A DNA stretch of 64,000 bases from Herbinix sp. (GTDB taxonomy: Bacteria > Bacillota > Clostridia > Lachnospirales > Lachnospiraceae). Each line of letters opens with the position of its first letter. Positions within the stretch are counted from its first letter, which is position 1. The translations under genes were made by a program, and so were the position numbers. The stretch is taken from positions 310,001 through 374,000 of the forward strand of contig JAQSYO010000002.1 in NCBI GenBank assembly GCA_029256105.1, read 5' to 3'. Below, in pieces: positions 15,213-46,085 of the stretch. The notes under the pieces were generated by a model that saw only the letters and a list, made by a program, of their open reading frames with translations, made no database searches and had not been told where the DNA came from.

Positions 15213-16334
15213 ATGAAAAAGAAGGGAAGTTTTTTCGGCGGACTAGTTGTTTTCTTTTTAATTATTATCATTCTTGGTGGAGTCGGATACCTGGGATATA
15301 ACATTATTAAAAATGGAAATGGTGGAATGGCTAGTATGACTTCTGACAGTACATCTGGGGATACAAATAACACAGATGTATCAAATACTGACACACCCAC
15401 TGATACAGCAAACTCGAATAATGATACTTCGACGAATAATGATACTACAACCGCTTCCGAAAATAGTAACAAAATCACACAGATCAATCAAGTGATGCTA
15501 AATAAGGAAATACTTGATAAAGCATCGAACACGATTAATTCATCGTTAGAACAGATGACGCTCGATCCTTATGCAGCGAAGTCAGACACGAATGCAACCA
15601 CAGATATGCAGGGAATGAATGACAGTCAGCAAAACAATCCTGATACAATTGCACAAGGAAGTACAACAGTGAATATTTATACGGCACCAACTGACCAAAT
15701 GACTCAGACACAGAGTATGAGTATGGGACAAACCTATGATTCTGATAAGATGCAGCAACTTCATTCCGGACTGTTCAAGGTTTCGGTAGGAATGCAATTG
15801 CTAAGTCAGCTTCAGAATAATCTTGAGAAACAAATTGAACAGGCAAGTATTGATGCAAATAGTGATTCAGAATATTTCATGAATCAGTATTATTCAACAA
15901 TACAAAATAAAAATAAGCTTACCAATGCACTTACCTATATCAATGAGGCAGTTGATTTGATTAATATTAACCCATATGTAGATGCAAATGGAGTGGTATA
16001 TGATTCAAGTAAAATGACTCAGCTACATGACAGCATCTATATGATTGCTCAGGGAGTAGTAGACCTGAATAAGTTAAATGATGATTTGCTAACTCAAGCA
16101 GTACACATTGGAAATTCAGCACAGAATTCATATAATCAAGAGTTAGTTGATAGCGTAAATACCAACAACAATACTATGGATATGTCCACCGGTGGCTTAT
16201 TTAGTAATCTTAATCTATCATCAATTATAACTTTTGCTATGATAGCCTTTGTAGTAATTTTTATCATTGGATTACTTGGTGCTATCTTGAATCTCTTTAA
16301 GTCTAATAAAACAGGAAATGAACAGATATCGTAA
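15213..16334 (+). CDS. Membrane-anchored Ser/Thr/Asn-rich protein with TM at both termini and helical repeats
   Basis: RBS aaggaggtttttg; N-TM, S/T/D/N-rich linker, repeated 'DSxKMxQLHxxxxxxxxGxxxL' segments, C-TM. Confidence 0.7.
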   Translation: MKKKGSFFGGLVVFFLIIIILGGVGYLGYNIIKNGNGGMASMTSDSTSGDTNNTDVSNTDTPTDTANSNNDTSTNNDTTTASENSNKITQINQVMLNKEILDKASNTINSSLEQMTLDPYAAKSDTNATTDMQGMNDSQQNNPDTIAQGSTTVNIYTAPTDQMTQTQSMSMGQTYDSDKMQQLHSGLFKVSVGMQLLSQLQNNLEKQIEQASIDANSDSEYFMNQYYSTIQNKNKLTNALTYINEAVDLININPYVDANGVVYDSSKMTQLHDSIYMIAQGVVDLNKLNDDLLTQAVHIGNSAQNSYNQELVDSVNTNNNTMDMSTGGLFSNLNLSSIITFAMIAFVVIFIIGLLGAILNLFKSNKTGNEQIS

Positions 16335-16371
16335 TTTAAACTTTAATATATTTTGAAAGGAGTGAAATAAT

Positions 16372-17061
16372 ATGTGGGAAACAATAAAAAAAGACCCGCT
16401 TATTAAGACAATTGTTATTATTCTTCTTGGTGTTCTGGCCTTTGGATTTGCTTTCAATATCATGTTTGGATCAGGAAGCAGTGGAATGGAAGAAAGTACG
16501 ATGAGCATGGGTACGGGATACTCACTGAGTAATACGTTGGAGGTCATTATTGCACTACTCATTAAGCTGGCTATCATTGCTTTACTGATCGGAATCATTG
16601 TATGGATTTTTAGAGCAATAGGAAAACGAGCAGGAAATGAACAAACAGATAAATTTGCATGGATAAAGGAAGATCCTATTGTTAAAAATGCATTAATTAT
16701 AATTGGTGCAGTAATAGTACTAACATTTTTACTCTCATTATTTCGAGGAGGTTCTGCTACAGGTGAAATGACAGGTGGAAATTCCTATTCATTATTTACG
16801 AATATGAGCTATGGAATCCAATCCTTCTTTTCTTTGTTATTAAAGTTATTGCTCCTACTCTCATTTTTGGGTTTAGTGTATGGTATTTATATGTATCTAA
16901 AACAAAACCATATAAGCTTAACGAATCAGAATGTAAGTAATAAAATGGATAACAATAAGAGCACAACAATATGTCCTAATTGCAATGCACAGTTAAAAGA
17001 TAGCTGGAAATGTTGCCCGCACTGCGGAAGTGATAAAGGTGTTGAAGATAAAACAATATAA
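16372..17061 (+). CDS. 4TM membrane protein with internal duplication and C-terminal zinc ribbon
   Basis: Two homologous KxDPxxKxxxIIxG...LLLKL blocks; CPNCNAQLKDSWKCCPHCGSD; RBS gaaaggag. Confidence 0.75.
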   Translation: MWETIKKDPLIKTIVIILLGVLAFGFAFNIMFGSGSSGMEESTMSMGTGYSLSNTLEVIIALLIKLAIIALLIGIIVWIFRAIGKRAGNEQTDKFAWIKEDPIVKNALIIIGAVIVLTFLLSLFRGGSATGEMTGGNSYSLFTNMSYGIQSFFSLLLKLLLLLSFLGLVYGIYMYLKQNHISLTNQNVSNKMDNNKSTTICPNCNAQLKDSWKCCPHCGSDKGVEDKTI

Positions 17062-17081
17062 AAGATAATGAGGTCCGGCTT

Positions 17082-17558
17082 ATGAATAAAATAAGATTTG
17101 ATTTTGTAATACATTGGCTCTACGCAATCATATGGGCTTTACTAGCAATCAGCGGTTTTTCCATGGTAAGTGCAAAATTTGGATGGCTATTAAACTTTGA
17201 CTTTACGATAGCCGATACGATCCATAGAATTAATGCAGCTGCGTTTGTAGTAATCACATTTATATCAGTTGGGTATGAAATAATACGAAAGATAAAAAAG
17301 GATGATCGTACTCAGCCATGGTTCATAATAGGAAAAAGCGGTTATCAGCTTTTTACTTTTATAGTCAGTCTTCTACTGATAATAACCGGTGTAATTATTT
17401 GGATTTGTATGGAAGTTTATAAACCAGGGGTAGCTTTTGCACTTTTAATTCATGAATATGTATCGTATGTAGCACTTGCCAGTGTTGTATGGCATATGTA
17501 CAAAAAGACCCACATCTTATTGTGGCCTAAAAATAAAGCAAAGAAAGTTATGAACTAG
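17082..17558 (+). CDS. Small 4TM cytochrome b-like (formate dehydrogenase gamma/cyt b561-like) protein
   Basis: 4 TMs with candidate haem-ligand His in VIHWL, TIHRIN, LIHEYVSYVALASVVWHMYKKTH. Confidence 0.6.
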   Translation: MNKIRFDFVIHWLYAIIWALLAISGFSMVSAKFGWLLNFDFTIADTIHRINAAAFVVITFISVGYEIIRKIKKDDRTQPWFIIGKSGYQLFTFIVSLLLIITGVIIWICMEVYKPGVAFALLIHEYVSYVALASVVWHMYKKTHILLWPKNKAKKVMN

Positions 17559-17576
17559 AAGTAGAGGAGGGAGAGT

Positions 17577-17885
17577 ATGGTACAAAAACCGTGGTTTAAA
17601 GTTTTTATCTGGTTTCTGGCAACATTTTTCTTTTTCCTTGCCTCAGGAGTAATTATATCATTATTAAAGCCTGGCCCTACGGAAAGAGAGGTCATGAGTT
17701 ATATGTCGGGCATGATGGGAGCTATGGAGAGTTCAATCATGGGAGCACTGATGGACATGGAAGGAAATAGTAGTTTGAAATCAATCCTATTCTGGACAAT
17801 CAGTACATTTCCCCTCATTATAATTTTCAGTGTCATTGCCGGTTTTTATCTAAGAAAGAGAAGCGGTGAGGAAAAAAATGTTTGA
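17577..17885 (+). CDS. Small 2TM Met-rich-loop membrane protein
   Basis: TM-TM with loop REVMSYMSGMMGAMESSIMGALMDMEG; RBS gaggaggg. Confidence 0.6.
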   Translation: MVQKPWFKVFIWFLATFFFFLASGVIISLLKPGPTEREVMSYMSGMMGAMESSIMGALMDMEGNSSLKSILFWTISTFPLIIIFSVIAGFYLRKRSGEEKNV

Positions 17886-18240
17886 TAAAAAGAAGCTGAA
17901 TTTTTGGAGGTTAGCGGTAATATTCATGGGAGTAATCGTAATATCACTTTCTTCCTTATGGTTATCTCCGCAGGGTACGAAAGCTACAATGATGAATGTG
18001 AGTATGGGTAATATGGCTAAGGACATGCACCTGTCAAATATAACGATCTATGATTTGGTTGATAATCCAGAAACCGAAACCGAAACCGAAACACAAACAG
18101 ATAAGACGGATAGCACAGAGCACCATTCAGAACCATCAGACACGAAAAGTATGGGGATAATAACTACCCTGATTATATTTAGTCTTCTACCATTACTGAT
18201 CGGTGGAAGTATCATATTAGCAATAGTCTGGATAAAGTAG
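17878..18240 (+). CDS. Small 2TM membrane protein with Glu-Thr repeat loop
   Basis: Start overlaps the previous gene (gaggaaaaaaATG); ETETETETQTDKTDSTEHHSE loop. Confidence 0.6.
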   Translation: MFDKKKLNFWRLAVIFMGVIVISLSSLWLSPQGTKATMMNVSMGNMAKDMHLSNITIYDLVDNPETETETETQTDKTDSTEHHSEPSDTKSMGIITTLIIFSLLPLLIGGSIILAIVWIK

Positions 18241-18251
18241 GTGATAAAGAA

Positions 18252-18857
18252 ATGGATATTTTAGGTTCTATCGGACAATTATATACTTTTGTTTTATTAG
18301 TTCTTCTGTTCCTGGGATCAGGATTAGCTGTATGGGCTATGATAAATTCTATCATGAAAAACAAAGATAAGAGGAAGGTAAATTTTAATTCAAAACTTGG
18401 CAGTATAAAAAACAATAAAATAATCGGAGGTTTTCATATGAAAAATAACAATTTTATTAAATTAGCAGTATTCTCTTTTATAGGTATCATAATTAGCGCA
18501 GCAATATTAACGGCGCTTCCCAATACGAATGCGATGAACAATGCGAATAACATGAATATGCAATATGGTACAAATGGAATGTATACACAGACAAGTATGA
18601 ATGGACAAGCTAATATGAATATGCAGGGTAATACATCTAGTCAATATTATGATACAAATTCAATTCAACAGCAGTTATACAATATGCAGCAACAATTAAA
18701 CCAAATGCAAAGCCAGATTAATAATTCATCTAGTAATATGCAATCCCAGACCACCTCTGGAAGTAGTAATATGAACAACAGTAGTAATATGAACAACAGT
18801 AGTAATATGAACAACAGTAATTCAAATAGTAGCAGTAGTAGCATGCCGATGATGTAA
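18252..18857 (+). CDS. Met/Asn/Gln-rich membrane-anchored protein; likely main start at 18438
   Basis: Continuous ORF; internal GGAGG (18426-18430) precedes ATG 18438, giving MKNNNFIKLAVFSFIGIIISAAIL..., paralogous to the N-terminus of the 23751 gene; Met/Asn repeats SSNMNN. Confidence 0.65.
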   Translation: MDILGSIGQLYTFVLLVLLFLGSGLAVWAMINSIMKNKDKRKVNFNSKLGSIKNNKIIGGFHMKNNNFIKLAVFSFIGIIISAAILTALPNTNAMNNANNMNMQYGTNGMYTQTSMNGQANMNMQGNTSSQYYDTNSIQQQLYNMQQQLNQMQSQINNSSSNMQSQTTSGSSNMNNSSNMNNSSNMNNSNSNSSSSSMPMM

Positions 18858-18886: not shown

Positions 18887-18933
18887 AATATCGCCTAGGA
18901 CGAATTTGTTTTATATCGTCCCAAGGCGATATT
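18887..18933. repeat. Inverted repeat hairpin
   Basis: AATATCGCCtaGGACGA...TCGTCCcaaGGCGATATT. Confidence 0.7.
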
Positions 18934-18963
18934 TGCTAATAATCAAGGTAGGGAGATTTTCAT

Positions 18964-18984
18964 GCCTATTCGAATCGAATAGGC
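18964..18984. promoter_or_regulatory. 21-nt near-perfect palindrome 5' of response regulator
   Basis: GCCTATTCGA-A-TCGAATAGGC. Confidence 0.5.
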
Positions 18985-19019
18985 AACCAATTTATCTTGT
19001 TTGTAATAAGGAGGTATTC

Positions 19020-19706
19020 ATGCTGAAAAATGTATTAATCATAGAGGATGAAGTAAAAGTTTCGGAAGTAATCAAAGCTTATCTGGAAAAGGAAGGATAT
19101 CAGGTTTGGTGCGTTACGAGTGGACTAAAAGGAATTGAGTTATTCGGTAAAATTGATTTTAAACTGGTTATATTGGATTTGTTATTGCCTGACATAGACG
19201 GTGAAGAAGTGTGCAGGGTACTTAGGAAAATGTCCGATGTCTATATATTTATGTTAACTGCTAAAGTAGCACTTACAGATAAGATAGAAGGTTTAAACGC
19301 AGGAGCAGATGAATATTTAACAAAACCCTGTAGCCCAAGAGAACTTACGGCACGAGTAAATTCACTATTTCGGAGATTTGATTCTTCAGTACCAATTATT
19401 TTTATATCAAAGGATGGATTATTGACAATTGACTACAACAAAAGAGCTGTTAAATTAAAGGGACAGGAAATTCCCTTTACGCCCAATGAGTTTGATATTC
19501 TATATACCATAGCAAAAAATAAAGGACGTGTAGTTAATCGTGAACAATTGATTGAACAGGTATTCGATATTAGCTTTGAAGGCTCGGATAGAACGATTGA
19601 CGTTCATATAAAGAATATTCGCAAAAAGATTGAAGAGGATACAAGGAATCCCCAATACATTTTAACTGTAAAAAAGTTTGGTTATAAGTTTGGGGGTGAT
19701 GATTAA
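19020..19706 (+). CDS. OmpR-family response regulator (paralogue of 6474-7175)
   Basis: NVLIIEDEVKVSEVIKAYL, LVILDLLLPDIDGEE, SDRTIDVHIKNIRKKIE...FGYKFGGDD; RBS aaggaggtattc. Confidence 0.92.
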   Translation: MLKNVLIIEDEVKVSEVIKAYLEKEGYQVWCVTSGLKGIELFGKIDFKLVILDLLLPDIDGEEVCRVLRKMSDVYIFMLTAKVALTDKIEGLNAGADEYLTKPCSPRELTARVNSLFRRFDSSVPIIFISKDGLLTIDYNKRAVKLKGQEIPFTPNEFDILYTIAKNKGRVVNREQLIEQVFDISFEGSDRTIDVHIKNIRKKIEEDTRNPQYILTVKKFGYKFGGDD

Positions 19707-21055
19707 TGCATACGATTAGAAAGAGATTATCCTTTATTCTGGTTTTCTGTACAATTTTATCCGTATTGTTATCTGCATTTTTTGTTAATCTGGCTGTAAA
19801 TAGTACGTTCAATAAATATATCTCGGATAATCAAGAGAAAAGAAACGATCGCATTGTCCGATATTTTGAGGAAGTATATAAAAGAGATTTAAATTGGACA
19901 GCAGATTCTGGAAAAGAAATTCAACATGAAGGTTATATGAGTAAGTACTGCATAACGCTGCTCGATAAAGACAAAAAAGTAATATGGGCAATGGATACCT
20001 CTGAAATAATCGATATGAGTAATGAAAATGCTGGTAGCGAATACCGGACAGCTACCTTTAACATAACATATCAGGATACGACTGTGGGTTATGTAATAAT
20101 AGGACAATATGACCCAGTTTTGGTTTCGGAACAGGACATTAATTTTAAAAATTCAATTAATAAAAATATTGCAATAAGTGTTATTATCACGATAGCATTT
20201 GCAGGTCTAATCAGTATGTATTTTTCAAAACAATTTTCGAATCCAATTAAAGCAGTATCAGAGACTTCGGTTAATTTAACTGAGGGAAATTATAAATCTA
20301 AGACCGAGACGAAGAGTAAGGTGCAGGAAATAAATAATTTGATAAACAGTATTAATACGTTAGGAGAAAGACTTGAATACCAAGATGATCTAAGAAAACG
20401 ACTGGTATCTGATATATCTCATGAAATACGTACTCCTTTGAATATTTTCCAAAATAATTTGGAAGCAATGATAGATGGAGTGTTTCCAGCCACTGCAGAC
20501 AGACTGGTTAACCTAAATGATGAAGTAATCCGGTTTGGCAAACTGTTGAATAACTTAGATGTTTTAAAGCAAATTGAGGAAGAAAATATAAGTTTAAATT
20601 TTGAAACTGTGGACTTGGCAGAATTGATTAAAAATGTATATGATAACTTTTCTATTCCTACCCAAAATAGAAACATTAAGCTATCACTTAATATCCTACC
20701 AAATGAGGCATATGAATTACTTGGGGATAAAGATAAGTTAAGACAAGTGTTTATTAATATTTTGTCCAACGCAGTTAAATTCACGGAGAACGAGGGTAGT
20801 ATATCCGTTCACTTAGAAAGTAACAAAAATCAATTTTTAGTCATTGTGAAAGATACCGGAATAGGAATTAAGAAAGATGATTTACCATTCATTTATGAAA
20901 GGCTTTATAGAGGAGATAAAAGCCGACATCAAATTGAAGGAAGCGGTATCGGTCTCACAATTACAAAGCAAATATTAATTCGTCATTCTGCTACAATTGA
21001 CGTGGAGAGTGAGGAAGGTGTTGGGACTTGTGTTACCTTACGGTTTAATAGATAG
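19706..21055 (+). CDS. Sensor histidine kinase (paralogue of 7176-8567)
   Basis: SDISHEIRTPLNIF, NILSNAVKFTENEG, DTGIGIKKDDLPFIYERLYRGDKSR; TAATG overlap with RR. Confidence 0.92.
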   Translation: MHTIRKRLSFILVFCTILSVLLSAFFVNLAVNSTFNKYISDNQEKRNDRIVRYFEEVYKRDLNWTADSGKEIQHEGYMSKYCITLLDKDKKVIWAMDTSEIIDMSNENAGSEYRTATFNITYQDTTVGYVIIGQYDPVLVSEQDINFKNSINKNIAISVIITIAFAGLISMYFSKQFSNPIKAVSETSVNLTEGNYKSKTETKSKVQEINNLINSINTLGERLEYQDDLRKRLVSDISHEIRTPLNIFQNNLEAMIDGVFPATADRLVNLNDEVIRFGKLLNNLDVLKQIEEENISLNFETVDLAELIKNVYDNFSIPTQNRNIKLSLNILPNEAYELLGDKDKLRQVFINILSNAVKFTENEGSISVHLESNKNQFLVIVKDTGIGIKKDDLPFIYERLYRGDKSRHQIEGSGIGLTITKQILIRHSATIDVESEEGVGTCVTLRFNR

Positions 21056-21095
21056 AGTTTATTTATTCATATAGTTTAGATAATGGGGGATGATT

Positions 21096-22445
21096 ATGAA
21101 AATTCTAATAGCTGATGATGAAAAGAATATGAGATGGATCTTAGGTAAGAATCTTATAGAAGAGAATTTTACTGTTATTGAGGCCTCTGATGGAGAGGAA
21201 GCCTTTAACATGTTCTTGGATGAAGAGCCGGATATGGTTATTTTAGATTACCGTATGCCTAAGCTTGATGGAATGGAAGTGCTAAAAAGAATAAAGACGA
21301 TTAATTCGAAGCTTCCGGTAATAATGATAACTGCACATGGCAGTACGGATGCAGCAGTAGAAGCTATGAAGTTAGGTGCAGTGGATTATGTATCTAAGCC
21401 TTTTGATATTGATGAATTGAAATTAACAATATTTAAAGCTTTAAATGTTGTTAAGTTATATAAAGAAATCGATTATCTAAAAGAAACTGCTGGACAGAAA
21501 TTTAACGATAAAATAATTGGTAATAGTCGAAGAATGCAAGAAGTTTTTGAGATGGTTAATAAAGTTGCAGATACGAATGCATCTGTTTTAATAATTGGTG
21601 AAAGTGGTACCGGAAAAGAAGGCATTGCTGTTTCTCTACACAATAAAAGTGGCAGAAAAGATAAACCCTTTATTACTGTGAATTGTGGAGCTATACCAGA
21701 GACATTAATAGAAAGTGAATTATTCGGATACGAAAAAGGCGCTTTTACCGGTGCCAATTCCAGAAAATTAGGTAGATTTGACAGAGCACAGGGTGGTACC
21801 TTGTTTTTAGATGAAATCGGAGAAATTAGTTTACCTCTTCAGGTGAAAATTTTACGTGTTCTTCAAGAAAAAGAGTTTGAACGAGTTGGAGGTACGGAAG
21901 TAATTAAAGCCGATGTTAGAATAGTAGCTGCTACGAATAGAAATTTAGATAAAATGGTTGAAAAGGAAGAATTTCGTGAAGACCTACTCTACAGATTAAA
22001 GGTGATACCAATTAAATTACCGCCATTAAGAGAGCGAAAAGAGGATATTCCGTTATTAGTAGATTTCTTTATGGATAAATATAGTAGAGAAATTAATAAG
22101 AGTAAGCTTTATATGGAAAGAGATACGCTGGAACTATTAATGAATTATGATTTTCCAGGTAATATCAGAGAATTAGAGAATCTGATTGAGAGGCTGATGA
22201 TACTTTCGTCGGGGGATAGTATAAGTCCGTCCTTGCTTCCGAAGGAATTAGTAAAAGGAGCGTATGCTGCCAAAAAAGATATGTTTATGCTACCAGAGGA
22301 AGGAATTAATTTAGAGCAAATAGAGGAAAGCTTTGTAAAGCAAGCCTTGGAATTGTCAAAAGGAAACCAAACACACGCTGCGAAGTTATTGGGATTATCT
22401 AGGCATGCGCTAATATATCGATTAGAAAAATATAAATTAAAATAA
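21096..22445 (+). CDS. NtrC-family sigma-54-dependent response regulator (REC-AAA+-HTH)
   Basis: REC domain; GESGTGKEGIAVSLH; GAFTGA motif for sigma-54 contact; C-terminal HTH QTHAAKLLGLSRHALIYRLEKY. Confidence 0.95.
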   Translation: MKILIADDEKNMRWILGKNLIEENFTVIEASDGEEAFNMFLDEEPDMVILDYRMPKLDGMEVLKRIKTINSKLPVIMITAHGSTDAAVEAMKLGAVDYVSKPFDIDELKLTIFKALNVVKLYKEIDYLKETAGQKFNDKIIGNSRRMQEVFEMVNKVADTNASVLIIGESGTGKEGIAVSLHNKSGRKDKPFITVNCGAIPETLIESELFGYEKGAFTGANSRKLGRFDRAQGGTLFLDEIGEISLPLQVKILRVLQEKEFERVGGTEVIKADVRIVAATNRNLDKMVEKEEFREDLLYRLKVIPIKLPPLRERKEDIPLLVDFFMDKYSREINKSKLYMERDTLELLMNYDFPGNIRELENLIERLMILSSGDSISPSLLPKELVKGAYAAKKDMFMLPEEGINLEQIEESFVKQALELSKGNQTHAAKLLGLSRHALIYRLEKYKLK

Positions 22446-22597: not shown

Positions 22598-22969
22598 ATG
22601 GTTGCAACAATGGAAAAATCAACTAGTTCACTCATACAGAAGGGAAACCCAAATCAGACTTGTATTGATGCATGTGTGATATGTGCTCAAATATGCCAGG
22701 AATGCCTCAATATGTGTCTTCAAGAGGAAGATGTAAAAGCGAGAGTTGATTGTATTAAGACGCTTCAGGATTGTACTGAAATCTGTGTATTGACTGCCGG
22801 TTACATGTCTAGGAGTAGTGGAAATATTAAGAATATATGTAATGTATGTGCTACCATCTGCGAAAAGTGCGCAACAGAATGCGATTCCTTCCAGGATCAA
22901 CACTGTCAAACTTGCGCAGGTACTTGTAATCTATGTGCAACTGAATGTAAAAGCATGGGTAATATGTAA
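22598..22969 (+). CDS. Cys-rich four-helix-bundle copper-binding protein (Csp / DUF326-like)
   Basis: Repeated CxxxC: CIDACVICAQICQECLNMC, CIKTLQDCTEIC, CNVCATICEKCATEC, CQTCAGTCNLCATEC; RBS aggagg. Confidence 0.85.
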   Translation: MVATMEKSTSSLIQKGNPNQTCIDACVICAQICQECLNMCLQEEDVKARVDCIKTLQDCTEICVLTAGYMSRSSGNIKNICNVCATICEKCATECDSFQDQHCQTCAGTCNLCATECKSMGNM

Positions 22970-23250: not shown

Positions 23251-23266
23251 TGGCACAGTAATTGCT
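23251..23266 (+). promoter_or_regulatory. Sigma-54 (-24/-12) promoter
   Basis: TGGCACAGTAATTGCT; GG-N10-GC spacing exact. Confidence 0.9.
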
Positions 23267-23308
23267 ATATATATTAGTACAGGGAATTTGATTGAAGGAG
23301 GTGTAATT

Positions 23309-23737
23309 ATGAAAAAGGATTTAGCCTTAAAGGTAATTTTATTTTCTGTCTTTGGAATAGTCCTTTTATGGCTTGCAAAAGAAATACTATTCCCGGCAAA
23401 TTATTTAGGTTTTCGATTTAATATCAATGGAAATTATGGAGGTGATAATATGTACATGAATGGAAATTATGGAGTTGGAACAGGAACATTTTCTGTTTTA
23501 CTAGTATTCTTAATCAAATTTTTAATCGTTGTATTTGTCTTGGCATTAGTTGTAGGTTTGTTTATGGCAGCAAAAAATTATCTTTTTACGACACAAGATA
23601 TCAATGCATTTAAGGGAAGTTTTACTCCGGTTGAAAAGTCAAGAAAGACCTGTGATATTTGTGGTAAGACCTTAGAGAGTGGTTGGAAGGTATGCCCTTA
23701 CTGTGCAGCAGAAGTTAAAGAAAAAAGTGATTTATAA
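23309..23737 (+). CDS. 2TM protein with Asn/Gly/Met loop and C-terminal zinc ribbon
   Basis: GAAGGAGGTG before ATG 23309; loop NINGNYGGDNMYMNGNYG; CDICGKTLESGWKVCPYC. Confidence 0.75.
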   Translation: MKKDLALKVILFSVFGIVLLWLAKEILFPANYLGFRFNINGNYGGDNMYMNGNYGVGTGTFSVLLVFLIKFLIVVFVLALVVGLFMAAKNYLFTTQDINAFKGSFTPVEKSRKTCDICGKTLESGWKVCPYCAAEVKEKSDL

Positions 23738-23750
23738 AGGAGGTAAGCAA

Positions 23751-24176
23751 ATGAATAGAAATCCATGGTTAAAGTTAGCTGCAGTGTCTTTTACAGGAAT
23801 CATAATCAGCTTTGCAATACTCTGGGGAATTCAACAATATGAAAATTACCAATATTATAATGGTAATCAAGGTTATATGAACCAATCTCAGTATGGAGTG
23901 CCACAGAATGGAATGAACTCCTATGGGATGAACGGAATGAATATGCAAGGTAGTATGAGCGCAGGCATTAATATGCAAGGAAACATGCAAGGAAACATGC
24001 AAGGAAACATGCAAGGAAACATGCAAGGAAACATGCAGGGTAACATGCAAGGTAATACAAATACGCAAAGTAATTCAAATATGCAAGGTAATATGAATAG
24101 CGCATCCAGTAATAGTCAAAGTGGTGGTATGGGAATGATGGACGACATGATGAGTATGATGGATATGGGTATGTAA
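23751..24176 (+). CDS. Membrane-anchored Met-rich repeat protein (putative copper-binding)
   Basis: AAAGGAGGTAAGCAA-ATG; TM followed by (MQGN)n repeats and MGMMDDMMSMMDMGM tail. Confidence 0.75.
   Translation: MNRNPWLKLAAVSFTGIIISFAILWGIQQYENYQYYNGNQGYMNQSQYGVPQNGMNSYGMNGMNMQGSMSAGINMQGNMQGNMQGNMQGNMQGNMQGNMQGNTNTQSNSNMQGNMNSASSNSQSGGMGMMDDMMSMMDMGM
23973..24056 (+). repeat. 12-bp in-frame tandem repeat (~7 copies) encoding MQGN
   Basis: ATGCAAGGAAAC repeated, last copies diverged (ATGCAGGGTAAC, ATGCAAGGTAAT). Confidence 0.95.
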
Positions 24177-24211
24177 TTTTTCCCCCCATAGAAATTTATA
24201 AAAAACTGAAA

Positions 24212-24263
24212 ATAATAAGAGTTATCCAGGTTTGTATTAATATTACGGCAGGGATAACTCTTA
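24212..24263 (+). terminator. Rho-independent terminator-like hairpin
   Basis: AATAAGAGTTATCC...GGATAACTCTTATTTAT. Confidence 0.7.
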
Positions 24264-24459
24264 TTTATGAAACTATAAATGGACAGCAAAGTTATAATGA
24301 AAATCGTAATTTATAGGTAGATAAAAACTTCATATTATCTTCATATTACAACGATATAATTAATTACATAGAAAAGATTCCAATCTGTTTTAATGTGGCT
24401 TTTTGTGATGGATATAGTAATTGTTTTGAAATAACTTGAGCTATAGGGAGGAAGAAATA

Positions 24460-26199
24460 ATGAATAAATTAATTGGATCTTTATCAATTATTGCATTCAT
24501 TGTAGTCGTATTATGTGTTATTACTTGGAATAATAATATGCAAAGGGTAATGCAAAATAATCGAAATGCAACGGATTCATATAATCAAAAAAATAATATA
24601 AATATTACTAATATGATAGAGGAAGATAATAAGACAGCCGCTGCTAAAATGTCAGATGAAACGAATATGACAGACGAAGATATTTTGACAGATGATACAA
24701 ATAAGACGGATGAAACAAATATGGCTGACAATGCTCCTTCTACTATTTTACAGCCCAAAGAAGGACAACCTATTAAGGAAATTAATCTAGTAGCGATAGA
24801 AAATATAATTGAAATAAAGCAAGGTATTAATTTGCTTGTGTGGACTTATGGAGGAACAGTTCCTGGAACTGAGATTAGAGTAACCCAGGGTGATTTTGTA
24901 CGGGTTCATTTGACTAATACGTTACAGGAACCTATCACAATTCACTGGCATGGTTATCCGGTGAAGTCTGAGATGGATGGCATACCAGGTTACACACAGG
25001 ATGCAGTGCTACCGGGTGAAACCTTTACATACGAATTTTCTGCTGATTATGTTGGGACCTATTGGTATCACTCGCATCAGGAAAGCTCAAAGCAAGTAGA
25101 TATGGGGCTTTATGGAGCATTAATTGTAGAACCTAAAATTAAAACTATTATAGATAAAGAATATACTTTAATTCTTGACGAGTGGATGGAAAATAATGAG
25201 GAAGATATGACCATGTCCATGCCTAGTGATAGTTCTGATGATACGTTGAATATGGATAATGCATCCAATGCTTCGGGAAGTATGTCTAGTGTGGATGGGA
25301 ATGGACCCGAAATGGCGGAAGAAAAGATGATGAAAGAACTTTATAATATTTATACGGTAAACGGTAAATCGGGAGCGCATATTCGCCCATTAGAAGTAAA
25401 TATTGGGGATGTTATAAAATTGCGCTTCATCAATGCCGGATATCGGTCTCATGGTATTCATATACCAGGACAAGTTATTAAAGTTGTTAGTTCAGATGGA
25501 CAGGAGATTATGGGAGCGGATGAAATAAAAGATCAAATTATTGTAATTGCTCCAGGTGAGAGATATGATGTAGAATTTATCGTTCAATCAGAGGATAGTT
25601 TCATCATAGATTTTCATGATGAGAATCTGTTTAATGATCAGCTAAAGATTCCGGTGGTTGTTAATGGAGGAAACGGTAATATATTAAGTGAAGATAAATC
25701 GAAGGTATTATTAAAATTTGATTTATCCATCTATGGGAGTTTTAGTGAAGGGCAATTTACACTAGATCAAGAGTATGATGTAGAACAATATATTGAATTA
25801 AACTCAAAGGTAGATAATGATGCTTTAAGATATACAATAAATGGTTCAACTTTTGATGAGCTTCTTCCGATTACGATAAAAACTGGGGATTTCATAAAAC
25901 TTACTTATGAAAATAAGAGTTCTGTAGATCATCCAATGCATCTTCATGGCCACTTTTTTCAAATCTTATCGAAGAATGATATACCTTTTAGCGATACCAC
26001 AATAAGGAAAGATACACTTCTTATAAAATCTGGTGAAAAGTATGTGATTGCTTTTAAAGCAGATAATCCGGGTAATTGGGTACAACATTGTCATGAACTA
26101 CACCATGCAGCAGCAGGAATGATGCAAAAAATAATTTATTCGGATTATAAAGCTAATTATACGCCCGATCCCAATAATATGGTGAACAAGCCTGAATGA
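24460..26199 (+). CDS. Multicopper oxidase, membrane-anchored (CueO/laccase-like)
   Basis: Copper motifs ITIHWHG, TYWYHSHQE, HPMHLHGHFF and WVQHCHELHHAAAGMM; N-terminal TM. Confidence 0.9.
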   Translation: MNKLIGSLSIIAFIVVVLCVITWNNNMQRVMQNNRNATDSYNQKNNINITNMIEEDNKTAAAKMSDETNMTDEDILTDDTNKTDETNMADNAPSTILQPKEGQPIKEINLVAIENIIEIKQGINLLVWTYGGTVPGTEIRVTQGDFVRVHLTNTLQEPITIHWHGYPVKSEMDGIPGYTQDAVLPGETFTYEFSADYVGTYWYHSHQESSKQVDMGLYGALIVEPKIKTIIDKEYTLILDEWMENNEEDMTMSMPSDSSDDTLNMDNASNASGSMSSVDGNGPEMAEEKMMKELYNIYTVNGKSGAHIRPLEVNIGDVIKLRFINAGYRSHGIHIPGQVIKVVSSDGQEIMGADEIKDQIIVIAPGERYDVEFIVQSEDSFIIDFHDENLFNDQLKIPVVVNGGNGNILSEDKSKVLLKFDLSIYGSFSEGQFTLDQEYDVEQYIELNSKVDNDALRYTINGSTFDELLPITIKTGDFIKLTYENKSSVDHPMHLHGHFFQILSKNDIPFSDTTIRKDTLLIKSGEKYVIAFKADNPGNWVQHCHELHHAAAGMMQKIIYSDYKANYTPDPNNMVNKPE

Positions 26200-26352
26200 A
26201 ATATTTAAATATGATTTATCATGTATTTGGTGACTGTATAACAAGGAAAGATAATATTACATCCTTGTAAGTAAAATAAGTAAAGTTGTAGAGTATGTAA
26301 ATTACGTTTAGTCATAATAAGATAAATGATATTTAAGGTGGAGGTGAGTTTT

Positions 26353-27765
26353 ATGGATATGAGTATGAAACAAAAAATGCAACAAGAACAGAAATTGATT
26401 TTAACGACAGAAATGCAACTGTCTTTAAAACTACTCCAAATGCCTATTAATGATTTACAAGAATGTATTGAAAAGGAACTTGATGAGAATCCAATTTTAG
26501 AGATCGATGATACAATTTCTGATGATGCGACTAAAGTTGATGAAAATAAAGAGGACTTTTCAATTAAGGAAGAGATATTTGATTATAGTAGCTTCCTACA
26601 ACAATCAAAATATGATGGTAATATTCAAGATGTTTCCTATATTGATAATGATGAGGATAATATTAATAATCCATTCAATTATATCTCCAAAACTACTTCA
26701 CTCAAAGAATATTTAAAGGATCAGTTGATAGAAAGAAATGATAATAAAGAAATAAAAAATATAAGTGAATATCTTATAGAATGTATGAATGCCGATGGTT
26801 TCATTACGGATGATATAAAAGATATCGTTATAAATATTGCTGAGTCATATGAAAAGGTTAATTCTGCTTTAAAAATAGTACAAGATTTACAGCCGTGGGG
26901 TATTGGCGCAAAAGATTTTAAAGAGAGTTTAGTAATACAATTAAGAAAGAAAAATATCAGTGATAATAAAATTTATATAATCATTAATAATTTCTTGGAT
27001 CTGTTGGCGGATAATAAGTACAAGGAATTAGCCCATATTTTAAACGTAGATATAGAAACGATAGGGCGTTATGCTGATATCATAAAATCACTGGAACCGA
27101 AACCTGCCAGGGGTTTTTATACCGGAGAAGATACAAAATATATCATTCCTGAGGCATTTATTAAGAAAATTGGTAAGGAATACTATATCATTATGAATGA
27201 TGATATGCTTCCCAAGCTAAATGTAAATACGTATTATTGTGATATTATCAAAGAGGATAATAACTCAGAAGCAGTAAACTTTATCAAAGATAAGGTAAAT
27301 AGTGCGTTATATCTGATTAAGGGAATTGAACAAAGACGAAATACAATCTATAGAGTTTTAGAAAAAATTATGGAATTTCAGAGAGATTATTTTGACAAAG
27401 GCGAGTTGTATTTAAAACCTATGAATATGAAAGATATATCGGTAGACTTAAACTTACATGAATCAACGGTAAGTAGAGCAATTAAGGAGAAGTATATAAG
27501 TATTCCTATGGGTACAGTCAAAATAAAGGATCTATTTACGAACGGAATATACGCGGGTGATTCTTCGGAAGATGTCTCGACTAAAACTATTAAAAATGAA
27601 TTAGAAAAAATGATAAGAGAAGAAGATAAGCACCATCCACGATCGGATCAAGACCTCTGTGATATTTTAAATAGTATGAATTTAAATATATCGCGAAGAA
27701 CCGTAGCTAAATATCGAGAAGAGCTAGGAATAAGGTCATCCAGTAAACGAAAACTATTTAATTAA
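26353..27765 (+). CDS. rpoN: RNA polymerase sigma-54 factor
   Basis: Gln/Leu-rich region I (MKQKMQQEQKLILTTEMQLSLKLLQMP...ELDENPILE); HESTVSRAIKEKYI; RpoN-box-like RRTVAKYREELGI. Confidence 0.94.
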   Translation: MDMSMKQKMQQEQKLILTTEMQLSLKLLQMPINDLQECIEKELDENPILEIDDTISDDATKVDENKEDFSIKEEIFDYSSFLQQSKYDGNIQDVSYIDNDEDNINNPFNYISKTTSLKEYLKDQLIERNDNKEIKNISEYLIECMNADGFITDDIKDIVINIAESYEKVNSALKIVQDLQPWGIGAKDFKESLVIQLRKKNISDNKIYIIINNFLDLLADNKYKELAHILNVDIETIGRYADIIKSLEPKPARGFYTGEDTKYIIPEAFIKKIGKEYYIIMNDDMLPKLNVNTYYCDIIKEDNNSEAVNFIKDKVNSALYLIKGIEQRRNTIYRVLEKIMEFQRDYFDKGELYLKPMNMKDISVDLNLHESTVSRAIKEKYISIPMGTVKIKDLFTNGIYAGDSSEDVSTKTIKNELEKMIREEDKHHPRSDQDLCDILNSMNLNISRRTVAKYREELGIRSSSKRKLFN

Positions 27766-27942
27766 CAAACGTACAGTGATTTCAAACTTACATTAAAAAA
27801 CCTATTGTACAAAAATAAACATTAAGCTGTAGAAATTTGAACAGTTATTAATAGTACTCAATATAGTATTCAAAATGTACTCAAAAGAACAAAGGCTGTT
27901 GTAAGATAATAAATTGCAGCAACCTTTGCTATTTTGGAAGAA

Positions 27943-28170
27943 TTAATGTTCCAAATTCCTCTTGATTTTTAAATATTCTTCCTCATTAATCTCACCTTTG
28001 GCATATCGTTCCCGTAATATCTCAAGGGAACGGTCCAAGCTATATCCAGAATTACCGGAATTGTTATATTGGTTCGGTAAATTGTAGTGGGAATTATAGT
28101 GTGAATTATTGATAATATGAAATACAAACCAAATGATAAGAAATAAGGATAATAAAGGTATAAGAAACAT
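27943..28170 (-). CDS. Small TM protein with C-terminal SHOCT domain
   Basis: SLEILRERYAKGEINEEEYLKIKRNL; GGAGGTGATATC-ATG on minus strand; sigma-54 promoter directly upstream. Confidence 0.8.
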   Translation of the reverse strand: MFLIPLLSLFLIIWFVFHIINNSHYNSHYNLPNQYNNSGNSGYSLDRSLEILRERYAKGEINEEEYLKIKRNLEH

Positions 28171-28207
28171 GATATCACCTCCGTTAATGTCTCTAGGAAT
28201 ATTAGAA

Positions 28208-28223
28208 AGCAATTACTGTGCCA
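28208..28223 (-). promoter_or_regulatory. Sigma-54 promoter, minus strand
   Basis: Reverse complement reads TGGCACAGTAATTGCT, identical to the site at 23251-23266. Confidence 0.9.
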
Positions 28224-28230
28224 AAATAAT

Positions 28231-28246
28231 TGGCATGATAATTGCT
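28231..28246 (+). promoter_or_regulatory. Sigma-54 promoter, plus strand, divergent
   Basis: TGGCATGATAATTGCT; 7 bp from the divergent site. Confidence 0.9.
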
Positions 28247-28287
28247 TGTATATATTAGAGTAAATTTAAAATAAAGGGGTGACAAAA

Positions 28288-28398
28288 ATGAGCAAAAAGA
28301 CATTAACAATATTAAGTATTACAGCAGGAATTGTAGTGGTTTTAGTAATTGGGTATTTGGTATATATGTATGGTATTATGCCAGCATCAAAGATGTAA
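28288..28398 (+). CDS. 36-aa single-TM microprotein (absent from ORF track)
   Basis: AAAGGGGTGAC RBS then MSKKTLTILSITAGIVVVLVIGYLVYMYGIMPASKM*; sigma-54 promoter upstream, terminator downstream. Confidence 0.7.
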   Translation: MSKKTLTILSITAGIVVVLVIGYLVYMYGIMPASKM

Positions 28399-28498
28399 GT
28401 TAGTTATTTAATTTGTATTATATTCGCAATTTAGTTATTTGGATTTAACATAGTAGTTGTTGTGATTGGGCAATATGCTCATAGAATCATAAACATAT

Positions 28499-28531
28499 AC
28501 AAAAGTGGATAATTTTGATATCCACTTTTGT
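28499..28531 (+). terminator. Terminator hairpin after microprotein
   Basis: ACAAAAGTGGATA-TTTTGA-TATCCACTTTTGT. Confidence 0.65.
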
Positions 28532-28637
28532 ATATATAATTATTCAGTACAATAGAATGTTTGATTATCAATCATCCTGTTTTACCAGGAAAAACTTAGA
28601 TTAACATAAATTAAGAAATCAATAAGGCGGTGAATGA

Positions 28638-28985
28638 ATGAATTTTAAGAAAACAATTTTATATCTTCTTTCGGGTATCTTTATACTAATATTTGTATAT
28701 AATTTTGTCCTTCCCTACATGGTTACTCCAAATTATACCGGCATGGGGATGCATATGTATAGTGGGAGTTTTAATAATTCAACTTATTATTATTTTGCCA
28801 ATTTGATTACTTTCTTAATCATTATTTTAGTTATTATCGTTGTAGTAATGGCATTATTTAAACTATTTATGAGTCCAACGCAAAAGAAATGTAAAAAATG
28901 TGGATTAGCAATTGATAGTGATCGTTGGCAAATATGTCCGAGATGTGGAAATAATCTTCAGGATGGGAGTGTGGATAAGAAATGA
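28638..28985 (+). CDS. 2TM protein with Met/Gly/Asn loop and C-terminal zinc ribbon
   Basis: Loop TPNYTGMGMHMYSGSFNNS; CKKCGLAIDSDRWQICPRCGNNL. Confidence 0.75.
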   Translation: MNFKKTILYLLSGIFILIFVYNFVLPYMVTPNYTGMGMHMYSGSFNNSTYYYFANLITFLIIILVIIVVVMALFKLFMSPTQKKCKKCGLAIDSDRWQICPRCGNNLQDGSVDKK

Positions 28986-29236
28986 CTCTTTTATTTTTGG
29001 TAGCAATTACGATAATCGTTTATTATGTTTTTATTTATAAAGAAGCTTATAAGAATATTTTTAATAATATATATGATAAAAAATGTCCGAATTGTAATAA
29101 TCCTATTGAGGCAAGTTATAATGTATGCCCAGTATGTAAGGAGACATTAAAAAAGAAATGCTCTAGCTGTGGAAACATGGTAGATAAAAGCTGGAAGTAT
29201 TGCCCTTATTGTAAGGTGACATTGAGAAAAAGGTGA
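28982..29236 (+). CDS. TM protein with two zinc ribbons
   Basis: CPNCNNPIEASYNVCPVC and CSSCGNMVDKSWKYCPYC; ATGA overlap with previous gene. Confidence 0.75.
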   Translation: MTLLFLVAITIIVYYVFIYKEAYKNIFNNIYDKKCPNCNNPIEASYNVCPVCKETLKKKCSSCGNMVDKSWKYCPYCKVTLRKR

Positions 29237-29330: not shown

Positions 29331-30770
29331 ATGAAAAAAAAAGTTGCTAATATAATTTTGATTATCTTAATAATAGTAGTTATTTCGGTATTACATTATA
29401 CATCGGAAGCTACTAATTCGACGTTACACCAATTTTATAAGCTTCTTTACTTTATTCCTGTAATTTTCGCAGCGATTAAGTATGGATTTCGAGGTGGTAC
29501 GGCAACTGCACTTTTTATTAGTCTTATTTATTCACCTCAAAAGTTGCTGTCAATAGGGATGGGTGGGGAGGCATTAAATGAATTGATGGATATCTTTTTG
29601 TTTTTTGCTGTTGGTATTGTTACAGGTATATTAGTTGAAAAGAAAAACCTAGCTGTCAAAACGATTGATAGCCAGCTGAAAAAATATGTCATTCTTGAGA
29701 ATTATACAAATTCCGTTTTAGAAAGTATTAAAATTGGTATTATTGCCATTAATAATGATTTTTATATCACATCAATTAATTCAGGAGCAAAGAACATATT
29801 GGGCGTAACAAATGATTGCATTGGCATGAACTTTGTGGAGGCCTTTTCTTGTTGTAAGGATATAGAGTCAATCATAGTTGGTGCTATGGAGGACAGTTCG
29901 ACATTAGTTAATTTGGAAAGAAATCTTCTACAAGATAATAAGGAAGTTAATATAAAAATCGATACATTTCCCCTGAGTCTAGAAAATAAGAATAAGGGTT
30001 TAGTTATTATAATTGAAGATATTACAGAAATAAAGAAGATTAAAAGTCAAATGCATCGAAATGACAAATTGGCATCCGTAGGCGAGTTAGCAACAGGTAT
30101 TGCTCACGAGATACGAAACCCTCTGGCAATCATAAAAATGATTGAGCAAACAATGAGCAAGGAATTAGAAAACAATAAGAGTGCTCTCGATGAACTAAAG
30201 ATTATTGATGAAGAAATAGAACGGGCAAATAAGGTTATAAAATCCCTGATGGAATTTAGTAAGCCGAGTAAAAATGAAAAAGATAAATATTCCATTAATC
30301 AAATAATTGAGGATGTACTCGTAATCACAAATAAATATACAGCTCAACATAATGTTAATGTCCTTGTAAAAGAGACTGAAGTTTCTGAAGGTATATTTGA
30401 CAGAGAACAACTGATACAGGTATTTATTAATCTGATATTTAATGCAGTAGATGCTATGCCTCAAGGTGGGGAAATCACTATAGCTATAACTTCGCAAAAC
30501 CTTTCAGATAATAAATTAAAGATTACTTTTGAGGATACTGGACAAGGGATTGATGACTTAAATTTGAATAAAATATTTGATCCATTCTTTACAACAAAAG
30601 CCGAAGGAACAGGTCTAGGGCTTCCAATAGTGTATAGAATTATTGAGGATCACGAAGGATCAATTAATGTAAAAAGCATAGTAGGAAGAGGCACGTATTT
30701 TGAGATAATATTGCCTGGAATAAAGGATGAAAGAACTATTAATGGTAGTAATGAAGCTACTATAATATGA
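29331..30770 (+). CDS. Membrane PAS-HisKA-HATPase sensor kinase (NtrB/AtoS-like)
   Basis: 4TM N-terminus, PAS, GELATGIAHEIRNPLAII, NLIFNAVDAMPQGG, GTGLGLPIVYRIIEDHEG. Confidence 0.92.
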   Translation: MKKKVANIILIILIIVVISVLHYTSEATNSTLHQFYKLLYFIPVIFAAIKYGFRGGTATALFISLIYSPQKLLSIGMGGEALNELMDIFLFFAVGIVTGILVEKKNLAVKTIDSQLKKYVILENYTNSVLESIKIGIIAINNDFYITSINSGAKNILGVTNDCIGMNFVEAFSCCKDIESIIVGAMEDSSTLVNLERNLLQDNKEVNIKIDTFPLSLENKNKGLVIIIEDITEIKKIKSQMHRNDKLASVGELATGIAHEIRNPLAIIKMIEQTMSKELENNKSALDELKIIDEEIERANKVIKSLMEFSKPSKNEKDKYSINQIIEDVLVITNKYTAQHNVNVLVKETEVSEGIFDREQLIQVFINLIFNAVDAMPQGGEITIAITSQNLSDNKLKITFEDTGQGIDDLNLNKIFDPFFTTKAEGTGLGLPIVYRIIEDHEGSINVKSIVGRGTYFEIILPGIKDERTINGSNEATII

Positions 30771-31947: not shown

Positions 31948-31979
31948 GGGACAAGCTAAATTAGTTGGGAGCGTTAAAG

Positions 31980-32168
31980 ATGGATATAAATGATAAGATT
32001 CGTAAAAGATACGACAGGATATCAAAGATCTATGATATTTTTGAGCAGCCGATGGAGATGATAGCGCTTAAAAAGTTTAACAGAAGAACAGTGAATAATG
32101 CTAAGATAGCAGGATTCACGAACTTAGATGTAACTGATTTAGCAGGAGATATTGTTAAAAGATTGTGA
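31980..32168 (+). pseudogene. Internally deleted class I SAM-methyltransferase-like remnant
   Basis: 62 aa reads like an N-terminus (IRKRYDRISKIYDIFEQPMEMIALKK) joined directly to a C-terminus (AKIAGFTNLDVTDLAGDIVKRL) with no SAM-binding core. Confidence 0.55.
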
Positions 32169-32280: not shown

Positions 32281-32591
32281 AAATTAGTCCGGTAACTATT
32301 AAAGTTAAAATATTTAATCTATTGTAATGAAAGTTGAAAAGAATTCACCCCTTACATAGTTATAGTAGTAAAGGATGAAGGAGTTAGCAGCTTTTATGTC
32401 TATGATCTGTTAGTTGTTAATAACTTCATTATGAATTTAATAATTGGCTTACTTAATTTAATCCATTTACCCGTGTCAAATATTATAAAAAAATATTAAA
32501 GATATTATTGACATATAATATTATACGGTGTATAGTATTATCAAGATCACAATATTATTTCTTTAATAGAACTCGGAAAGGAGTTGATATT

Positions 32592-44804: not shown

Positions 44805-46085
44805 TTAGTTTTTTATCCGTATATTATTAATGATAAATTTGCTTTTTGGAAGGGTAGGCATTCTTGATAATCGATAAGTTAAATCCTGGAGCGGCACCTG
44901 ATATTCGATACGAGTTGATAGAAATTTTAAGCTTTCTTTCATTAGTGCTAGCGTAATCATTTCACCTGGACAACGGGTTCCTTTATTGTAATCTCCACCA
45001 CCTTGAGGAATAAAATCGAAGGGATCTTCATTGCGATCACGAAAGCGTTCCGGTTGAAATATATTAGCATCCTTCCAGGTACTTTCATCATGGTTCGTCC
45101 CGAAAATGTCTAATAGCACCAAAGTGTCTTTTTTAAAGTTATAATTATGCCAATTGAAATCATTTCGCACTCTTGCAGCCAAAAAAGGGCCGAAGGGGTA
45201 ATAACGACGGATCTCCTGAATGAACATTGAGAGGTAGGTGTCATCCTTTTGTTGAAGCTTTTCCTTACATTCCGGATACGTATGCAGAGCTAAGGCTCCA
45301 AAGGTGATATAGGTAGCGATTGCTGTAATGGGTCGTAAAATATTTAATAATTCCACTGCAGCAACCTGTGTTTCAAGAAGGTTGCCGCTAAGATCACGGT
45401 GCCAAGCAATGGCATTTAAAGCAGTGTCCTTTGGCACTATAATACGTCCTGCTCTGACAGTACGAATGATATCCCCGGCCCAACATTCTGAGCGATTTCT
45501 TGCATATCTTCCCTTCCAATGTCTGGGTCCGGCGGCACCAAATGCATCAATCATAGCACTCATATCTTGTGATCTTTGCCTTATTTCCGATTTATGCAGC
45601 GGTACTCCAGCCCATTTGCAAGCTACTTGAAATAATAATTTGTTAGCTTCATCAAATAGCACCACCTTGTGCTTACCCTCCCAACGCTTGCTTTTTATCT
45701 GCCATAGGGATGTTGTAAGATTAATAATTCTATTGATTTGAGAGGGTGTCATAATGGACATAAAAAGTAACTTGCGGTGCATATGGGCAGCACCATCCAA
45801 GGTCTGGATGGCTTTTTTACCAAATAAGGTTTCTTGAATTCTCTTTGGCATCGCACCCTCTCTCGTAAACAAGTTCTGATCATAGAATAGCGTAGCGGCT
45901 TCTTTTCCACTGATACAAATTGCTTTTTGGCCCATTAAACGGATCTGAAATAAATCGGAACCATATTTGCGAATGCGATTTGGGATAAATAAATAACCTT
46001 CCATTAAAAGCAGTAGTGAACTATCTATAAATTTTTCTCTTGGTATTGTATTTGGCAATTTTCTGTTTATATCGGTTGGCTTCAT
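44805..46085 (-). CDS. Cytochrome P450, CYP152 (fatty acid peroxygenase)-like
   Basis: FGAAGPRHWKGRYARNRSE, ILRPITAIATYITFGALAL, EIRRYYPFGPFLAARV, FIPQGGGDYNKGTRCPGE (haem-Cys). Confidence 0.88.
   Translation of the reverse strand: MKPTDINRKLPNTIPREKFIDSSLLLLMEGYLFIPNRIRKYGSDLFQIRLMGQKAICISGKEAATLFYDQNLFTREGAMPKRIQETLFGKKAIQTLDGAAHMHRKLLFMSIMTPSQINRIINLTTSLWQIKSKRWEGKHKVVLFDEANKLLFQVACKWAGVPLHKSEIRQRSQDMSAMIDAFGAAGPRHWKGRYARNRSECWAGDIIRTVRAGRIIVPKDTALNAIAWHRDLSGNLLETQVAAVELLNILRPITAIATYITFGALALHTYPECKEKLQQKDDTYLSMFIQEIRRYYPFGPFLAARVRNDFNWHNYNFKKDTLVLLDIFGTNHDESTWKDANIFQPERFRDRNEDPFDFIPQGGGDYNKGTRCPGEMITLALMKESLKFLSTRIEYQVPLQDLTYRLSRMPTLPKSKFIINNIRIKN

Follow-up and report, generated by a model that had tools for sequence, protein, structure and literature searches.

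The analysed window is a 64,000-nucleotide stretch of a Herbinix sp. contig (JAQSYO010000002.1, positions 310,001 to 374,000 of the forward strand, assembly GCA_029256105.1, family Lachnospiraceae), and coordinates below refer to it unless stated otherwise. It carries a putative sigma-54 circuit, made of three promoter boxes, the sigma factor gene rpoN, an NtrC-type activator and an NtrB-like histidine kinase, which lies among copper and arsenic genes.

Promoter boxes, regulators and putative target genes

Three near-identical 16-mers with sigma-54 spacing, pointed out in a first-pass annotation of the sequence, were recovered at 23251-23266 on the + strand (P1, TGGCACAGTAATTGCT), 28208-28223 on the - strand (P2, also TGGCACAGTAATTGCT) and 28231-28246 on the + strand (P3, TGGCATGATAATTGCT), with predicted transcription starts near 23277, 28197 and 28258, respectively. 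P2 and P3 formed the divergent pair, separated by 7 bp, that the annotation had described. Each box displayed GG and GC pairs 10 bp apart within TGGCAY-N5-TTGCW, and when the window was scanned with a sigma-54 weight matrix, the three top ranks (18.2, 17.6 and 17.6 bits) were taken by P1-P3, followed by an intragenic site at 14.7 bits. The genome scan that the annotation had suggested was performed with TGGCAYRRTAATTGCT, the consensus common to P1-P3, at zero mismatches across the 4.8-Mb assembly (98.5% complete, contamination 7.5%); it returned three matches, all at this locus, against a chance expectation of about 0.03 genome-wide as estimated from base composition. The looser consensus TGGCAYNNNNNTTGCW gave 16 genome matches compared with 5 for a reversed control, and the 13 located outside the locus were found within open reading frames (ORFs; 12 matches) or in an intergenic position (1 match). 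Judged by their sequence, P1-P3 are not chance matches.

The complete sigma-54 gene rpoN (26353..27765, + strand), which the first-pass annotation had not seen, sits between the boxes. Its product harbored all three Pfam domains (AID, CBD and DBD) and the RpoN box SRRTVAKYRE, and scored 403 bits against TIGR02395 (cut-off 277). The NtrC-type sigma-54 activator (21090..22445, + strand) encompassed, according to Pfam, a receiver domain, an AAA+ domain with the GAFTGA motif and a Fis-type helix-turn-helix, and the NtrB-like histidine kinase (29331..30770, + strand) displayed membrane spans at its N-terminus, along with a PAS domain. These three genes, none more than about 8 kb away from the boxes, were full length and kept their invariant motifs. 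A genome search retrieved rpoN as a single copy, and only one genuine sigma-54 activator was obtained (250 bits); the next five AAA+ matches scored 20-33 bits and are probably Clp-, DnaA- or RuvB-like, given their length. Since rpoN, activator and kinase are nearby, and neither rpoN nor the genuine activator has a second copy in the genome, the boxes are read as a dedicated regulon, and the coherent sigma-54 regulon proposed earlier is thus supported at the level of sequence.

Each box preceded a small envelope gene with a strong ribosome-binding site, as had been annotated, and start codons were located about 40 nt from the boxes (zinc-ribbon gene at 23309, SHOCT gene at 28170 on the - strand, 36-aa ORF at 28288). 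The P1 unit encoded ZR1, a small membrane protein with a Met/Asn/Gly loop and a C-terminal zinc ribbon (23309..23737, + strand), and a Met-rich secreted-type protein with MNMQGNMQG repeats and no Pfam match (23751..24176, + strand). It was closed by a strong terminator-like hairpin (24214..24266, + strand, z = -5.6), which separates it from the downstream multicopper oxidase. P2 headed the gene of a SHOCT-domain membrane protein (27943..28170, - strand; PF09851), and P3 an ORF, with its own ribosome-binding site, for a single-span membrane microprotein of 36 aa (28288..28398, + strand), for which no homologue was found. A terminator- or attenuator-like hairpin (28495..28535, + strand, z = -6.0) lay between the microprotein and ZR2 (28638..28985, + strand), a membrane protein with a Met/His loop and a zinc ribbon whose homologue in the related locus L300 stands directly behind a sigma-54 box. 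ZR2 was followed by ZR3 (28982..29236, + strand), a membrane-anchored double zinc ribbon (DZR) found beside ntrB in loci L300, L303 and L305. No box of their own was detected for the multicopper oxidase and rpoN in the scan of the window, so that RpoN production is expected not to depend on the circuit.

Between P2 and P3, the GG pairs were 11 bp apart and, considering known footprint sizes of the polymerase, competition between two polymerases is expected at this site. Such close spacing was not kept in L303, in which the divergent boxes are 93 bp apart. Directly 5' of ntrC, with a gap of about 35 bp, ORFs for an OmpR-type response regulator and a histidine kinase were found (18906..21055, + strand), with homologues in the copper loci L088/L090 and in L300.

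Copper functions were represented by a Cys-rich four-helix copper-storage protein resembling Csp3 (22598..22969, + strand; DUF326, 70-bit PDB sequence match to CSP3) and by the multicopper oxidase with a Met-rich insert (24460..26199, + strand; Pfam Cu-oxidase_2 and _3, related to copper_res_A and CueO). CopA was encoded nearby, at position 2990, and arsenic genes were likewise present in the island described below. The resident copA-copRS genes were rejected as regulon members, as they displayed no intergenic box and are kept in congeners without rpoN. An operon at 15213-18857 encoded Met-rich proteins as well as membrane proteins, among them a loop/zinc-ribbon protein that is duplicated (16372-17061); homologues were also found in genomes G377 and G516, where the sigma-54 layer is missing. 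The same two genomes harbored homologues of the multicopper oxidase and Met-rich modules, but no such NtrC, NtrB or rpoN homologue alongside (activator-domain scores of at most 133 bits in G377 and 44 bits in G516). A requirement of such copper genes for this sigma-54 circuit was therefore rejected, and the sigma-54 layer has been added to a copper module. Outside this gene set, a cytochrome P450-like ORF (44805-46085) was observed in this apparently anaerobic clostridial genome.

An island absent from congeners

The whole sigma-54 circuit is held by an arsenic/copper island of about 24 kb (8568..~32485) that was missing at the same junction in congeners; the first-pass annotation had not recognized it as acquired. 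Sequence common to congeners ended at 8567 and restarted at 32485; these flanks were separated by 265 bp in G301 and 585 bp in G321, while the other four of the six congeners examined displayed different, shorter stretches at the junction. All six kept the resident copper two-component genes on the left and the PadR-type gene on the right. GC content was 0.29-0.34 over 14-32 kb, compared with 0.35-0.41 in most of the remaining window. Foreign contamination of the contig was rejected, since argS in the flank reaches 83% identity with its congener counterparts, which places the contig in the genus. Neither a tRNA in the window nor end repeats of the island (at least 11 bp with at least 3 G/C) were detected, and no integrase was noticed among the ORFs of the window. 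A short ORF at the right end of the island (31965-32168) looks like a methyltransferase without its middle; a methyltransferase follows ntrC in L300.

RpoN was not found in any of the 33 other genomes of the genus, a 25%-identity match in one of them (E = 1.6e-4) being taken as spurious, and strong matches were obtained in 46 of 299 genomes of the family (own genome included). Family RpoNs retrieved were only about 26-34% identical to that of the island. In trees built by a quick method, the island RpoN was placed apart from its own family and joined Clostridium-type RpoNs in a starred clade; these were 48-54% identical to it among the matches listed and, where inspected, were located upstream of cggR-gapA. 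An RpoN alignment query of the genome collection returned at least 80 loci; among the 80 matches listed, none had the copper genes of the window, and one, L193, had a syntenic NtrBC module. The plasmid collection yielded no RpoN above about 37% identity. The empty site in close relatives and the different ancestry of the genes both point to horizontal acquisition. The RpoN tree argues against loss from the congeners instead of gain here, because RpoN groups in a Clostridiaceae clade away from its own family.

Related modules and known sigma-54 systems

The island NtrC was sister (97*) to the NtrC of L300, with 60% identity, and L300 displayed the gene set of the window in the order OmpR regulator-kinase-[box]-ZR2-ZR3-ntrB-ntrC. 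In L303, a box headed zinc-ribbon genes followed by ntrB and ntrC, with the second, divergent box and a copper-type ATPase close by. Boxes in L301 were located before a copper-type ATPase and before a unit of small membrane protein, ntrB and ntrC, and the box of L306 started a gene run with copA and an HMA protein, then ntrB-ntrC. In these relatives ntrB orthologues adjoin ntrC, whereas the two genes are apart in the window. Boxes were also observed in L301 (6724 onwards) and L305 (6784 onwards) before a tiny conserved LDCC(D/E)LN peptide followed by a small membrane protein.

More distant modules were found in genomes assigned to the class Coriobacteriia, a label given by the genome collection. 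L193, from a metagenome-assembled genome named Coriobacteriaceae with one genuine activator, displayed the order rpoN-ntrB-ntrC-[box]-membrane zinc ribbon-HMA chaperone. RpoN was present in 98 of 400 genomes sampled from this class, and rpoN-ntrB-ntrC were syntenic in all 13 further loci retrieved (L250-L262). A box was located 5' of rpoN in 13 of 14 loci (L193 counted). Contigs of 13 loci extend past ntrC to the zinc-ribbon position, and 12 of these had a box between the two. Over the 229 kb of these loci, 27 strict box matches were obtained, compared with none for two control patterns. A survey from 2025 described Actinomycetota as effectively without functional RpoN (PMC12316311), a published view on which these relatives touch. 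CsoR and CDF genes were also observed near the conserved module (L193, L250-L262). A second Coriobacteriia group (L264-L266) harbored a different rpoN with adjoining TGGCACGGTTYTTGCA boxes. In L264 and L266, a box was followed after about 180 bp by a gene whose product (about 414-421 aa) has many membrane spans.

Among known systems, CorSR of Myxococcus xanthus was the closest in its working, as judged by gene layout (PMC3707914). CorSR and the copper-induced curA operon comprise a sigma-54-dependent regulator and kinase, a multicopper oxidase, copA and four putative boxes (PMC3707914); a sigma-54 regulator beside a multicopper oxidase and boxes within a copper cluster were likewise encountered here. 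However, neither rpoN nor membrane zinc-ribbon genes are listed among the nine genes of the curA operon (PMC3707914), while the island has both, and the sensor domain of CorS is periplasmic, in contrast to the island kinase, which is mostly membrane spans and PAS. The ZraPSR system of enterobacteria also combines an NtrC-family regulator and kinase with a divergent small envelope gene under sigma-54 dependence. It has no rpoN of its own; here, no ZraP homologue was seen, and the island NtrC, about 43% identical to ZraR, was placed outside the ZraR branch. The island NtrC did not qualify as an AtoC, ZraR or NtrC equivalog either, all scores being under the NCBIfam cut-offs (AtoC 502 of 714, ZraR 390 of 760).

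Sigma-54 regulons of Clostridiales were assigned to 39 activator groups, mostly for catabolism (Nie 2019, PMC6615313), with the same consensus as here, TTGGCATNNNNNTTGCT, a single sigL per genome and most activators controlling one nearby operon; the words copper, zinc and arsenic are nowhere in that text (PMC6615313). Chlamydia and Borrelia possess one sigma-54 with one activator (PMC3162934), but in the small genomes of intracellular or symbiotic species (PMC3162934) and not on an island in a genome of 4.8 Mb. None of the open-access full-text papers found described a single-activator sigma-54 system as island cargo. In mechanism, CorSR and ZraPSR are already known kin; the new part is that the system is private, portable and equipped with a sigma factor of its own.

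Proposed circuit and alternative explanations

The preferred reading, with an estimated probability of about 0.78, is that a horizontally acquired arsenic/copper island supplies a private and complete sigma-54 circuit to a genus otherwise without sigma-54. Normally a genome-wide regulator, sigma-54 seems to serve here for the private control of copper-defence genes, and the stimulus, read from gene content, is probably copper-like. The NtrB-like kinase would sense a metal, most likely copper, or a metal-damaged envelope, and would phosphorylate the island NtrC, as its family suggests. ATP-driven NtrC hexamers would then open the closed complexes of RpoN-polymerase at P1-P3, consistent with the family of the activator and with the boxes. 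Genes switched on would be those coding for the membrane zinc-ribbon and Met-rich copper-binding proteins, the SHOCT protein and the microprotein, whose products may bind or handle copper at the membrane, as Met/His loops, zinc ribbons and neighbouring genes suggest. Transcription from P3 reading through the hairpin may reach ZR2-ZR3-ntrB and provide positive feedback, a possibility suggested by gene order in the relatives. The position of ntrC, just behind the OmpR-type pair, suggests that this pair may prime the circuit.

Several observations weigh against this reading. A further intergenic box-like site, TGGCATGCATTTTGCT, was found at C31:206827-206842, located 162 bp 5' of an ORF that spans at least 451 aa and looks chemoreceptor-like in sequence. 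No activator-binding site was detected near P1-P3 or across the relatives, dyad searches returning AT-rich chance matches only. The two hairpins (24214-24266 and 28495-28535) disrupt a simple operon picture. The copper signal is itself read from neighbour genes, and arsenic or general envelope stress remain alternatives.

Such stress forms the core of a rather unlikely explanation, in which a ZraPSR-type sigma-54 circuit answers to envelope stress or zinc and copper is incidental. Both systems combine an NtrC-type regulator and a small envelope gene that is divergent, the membrane proteins produced here carry zinc ribbons, and the island has arsenic genes as well; yet the island NtrC clusters apart from ZraR and AtoC, relatives have boxes at copA and HMA genes, and the boxes of the window flank the multicopper oxidase and the Csp3-like gene. 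The island could also be a decaying passenger, whose promoters and genes persist with their function lost in this host. Its AT-richness relative to the flanks, its patchy occurrence in the genus, the fragment-like methyltransferase ORF at its right end and the parting of ntrC from ntrB would fit such decay, which the full-length rpoN, ntrC and ntrB with their invariant motifs and the near-perfect state of the three boxes make improbable.

The near-identity of two boxes could partly reflect promoter duplication and not regulator constraint alone, since they also have TATATATTAG in common downstream. A third explanation takes the boxes for chance or duplicated AT-rich sequence and leaves the genes to the housekeeping sigma factor; the common TATATATTAG would fit a duplication, and sigma-70-like hexamers are plentiful. 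Sigma-70-like sites were no commoner than in shuffles, however, whereas exact box matches were unique to this locus, beside the sole rpoN and activator, and homologous operons of other lineages have boxes at the same place, so that such an origin is very improbable.

Beyond the private circuit of this island, it is slightly more likely than not that sigma-54 modules which are portable and self-sufficient (rpoN, ntrB, ntrC, membrane zinc-ribbon and copper genes, and promoters) recur as a class dedicated to a single metal response. These modules would have emerged in, or been passed between, Bacillota and Coriobacteriia, the latter within a phylum thought effectively without sigma-54, and would give resistance islands their own sigma factor in hosts without one. 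With one sigma factor, one activator and three known promoters, the system described here offers a minimal natural case for studying how sigma-54 circuits spread. Sigma-54 is usually regarded as a common genome-wide factor; if the proposed circuit is real, it would be cargo that makes a resistance island independent of host regulation, which would account in part for the patchiness of rpoN among Clostridia.

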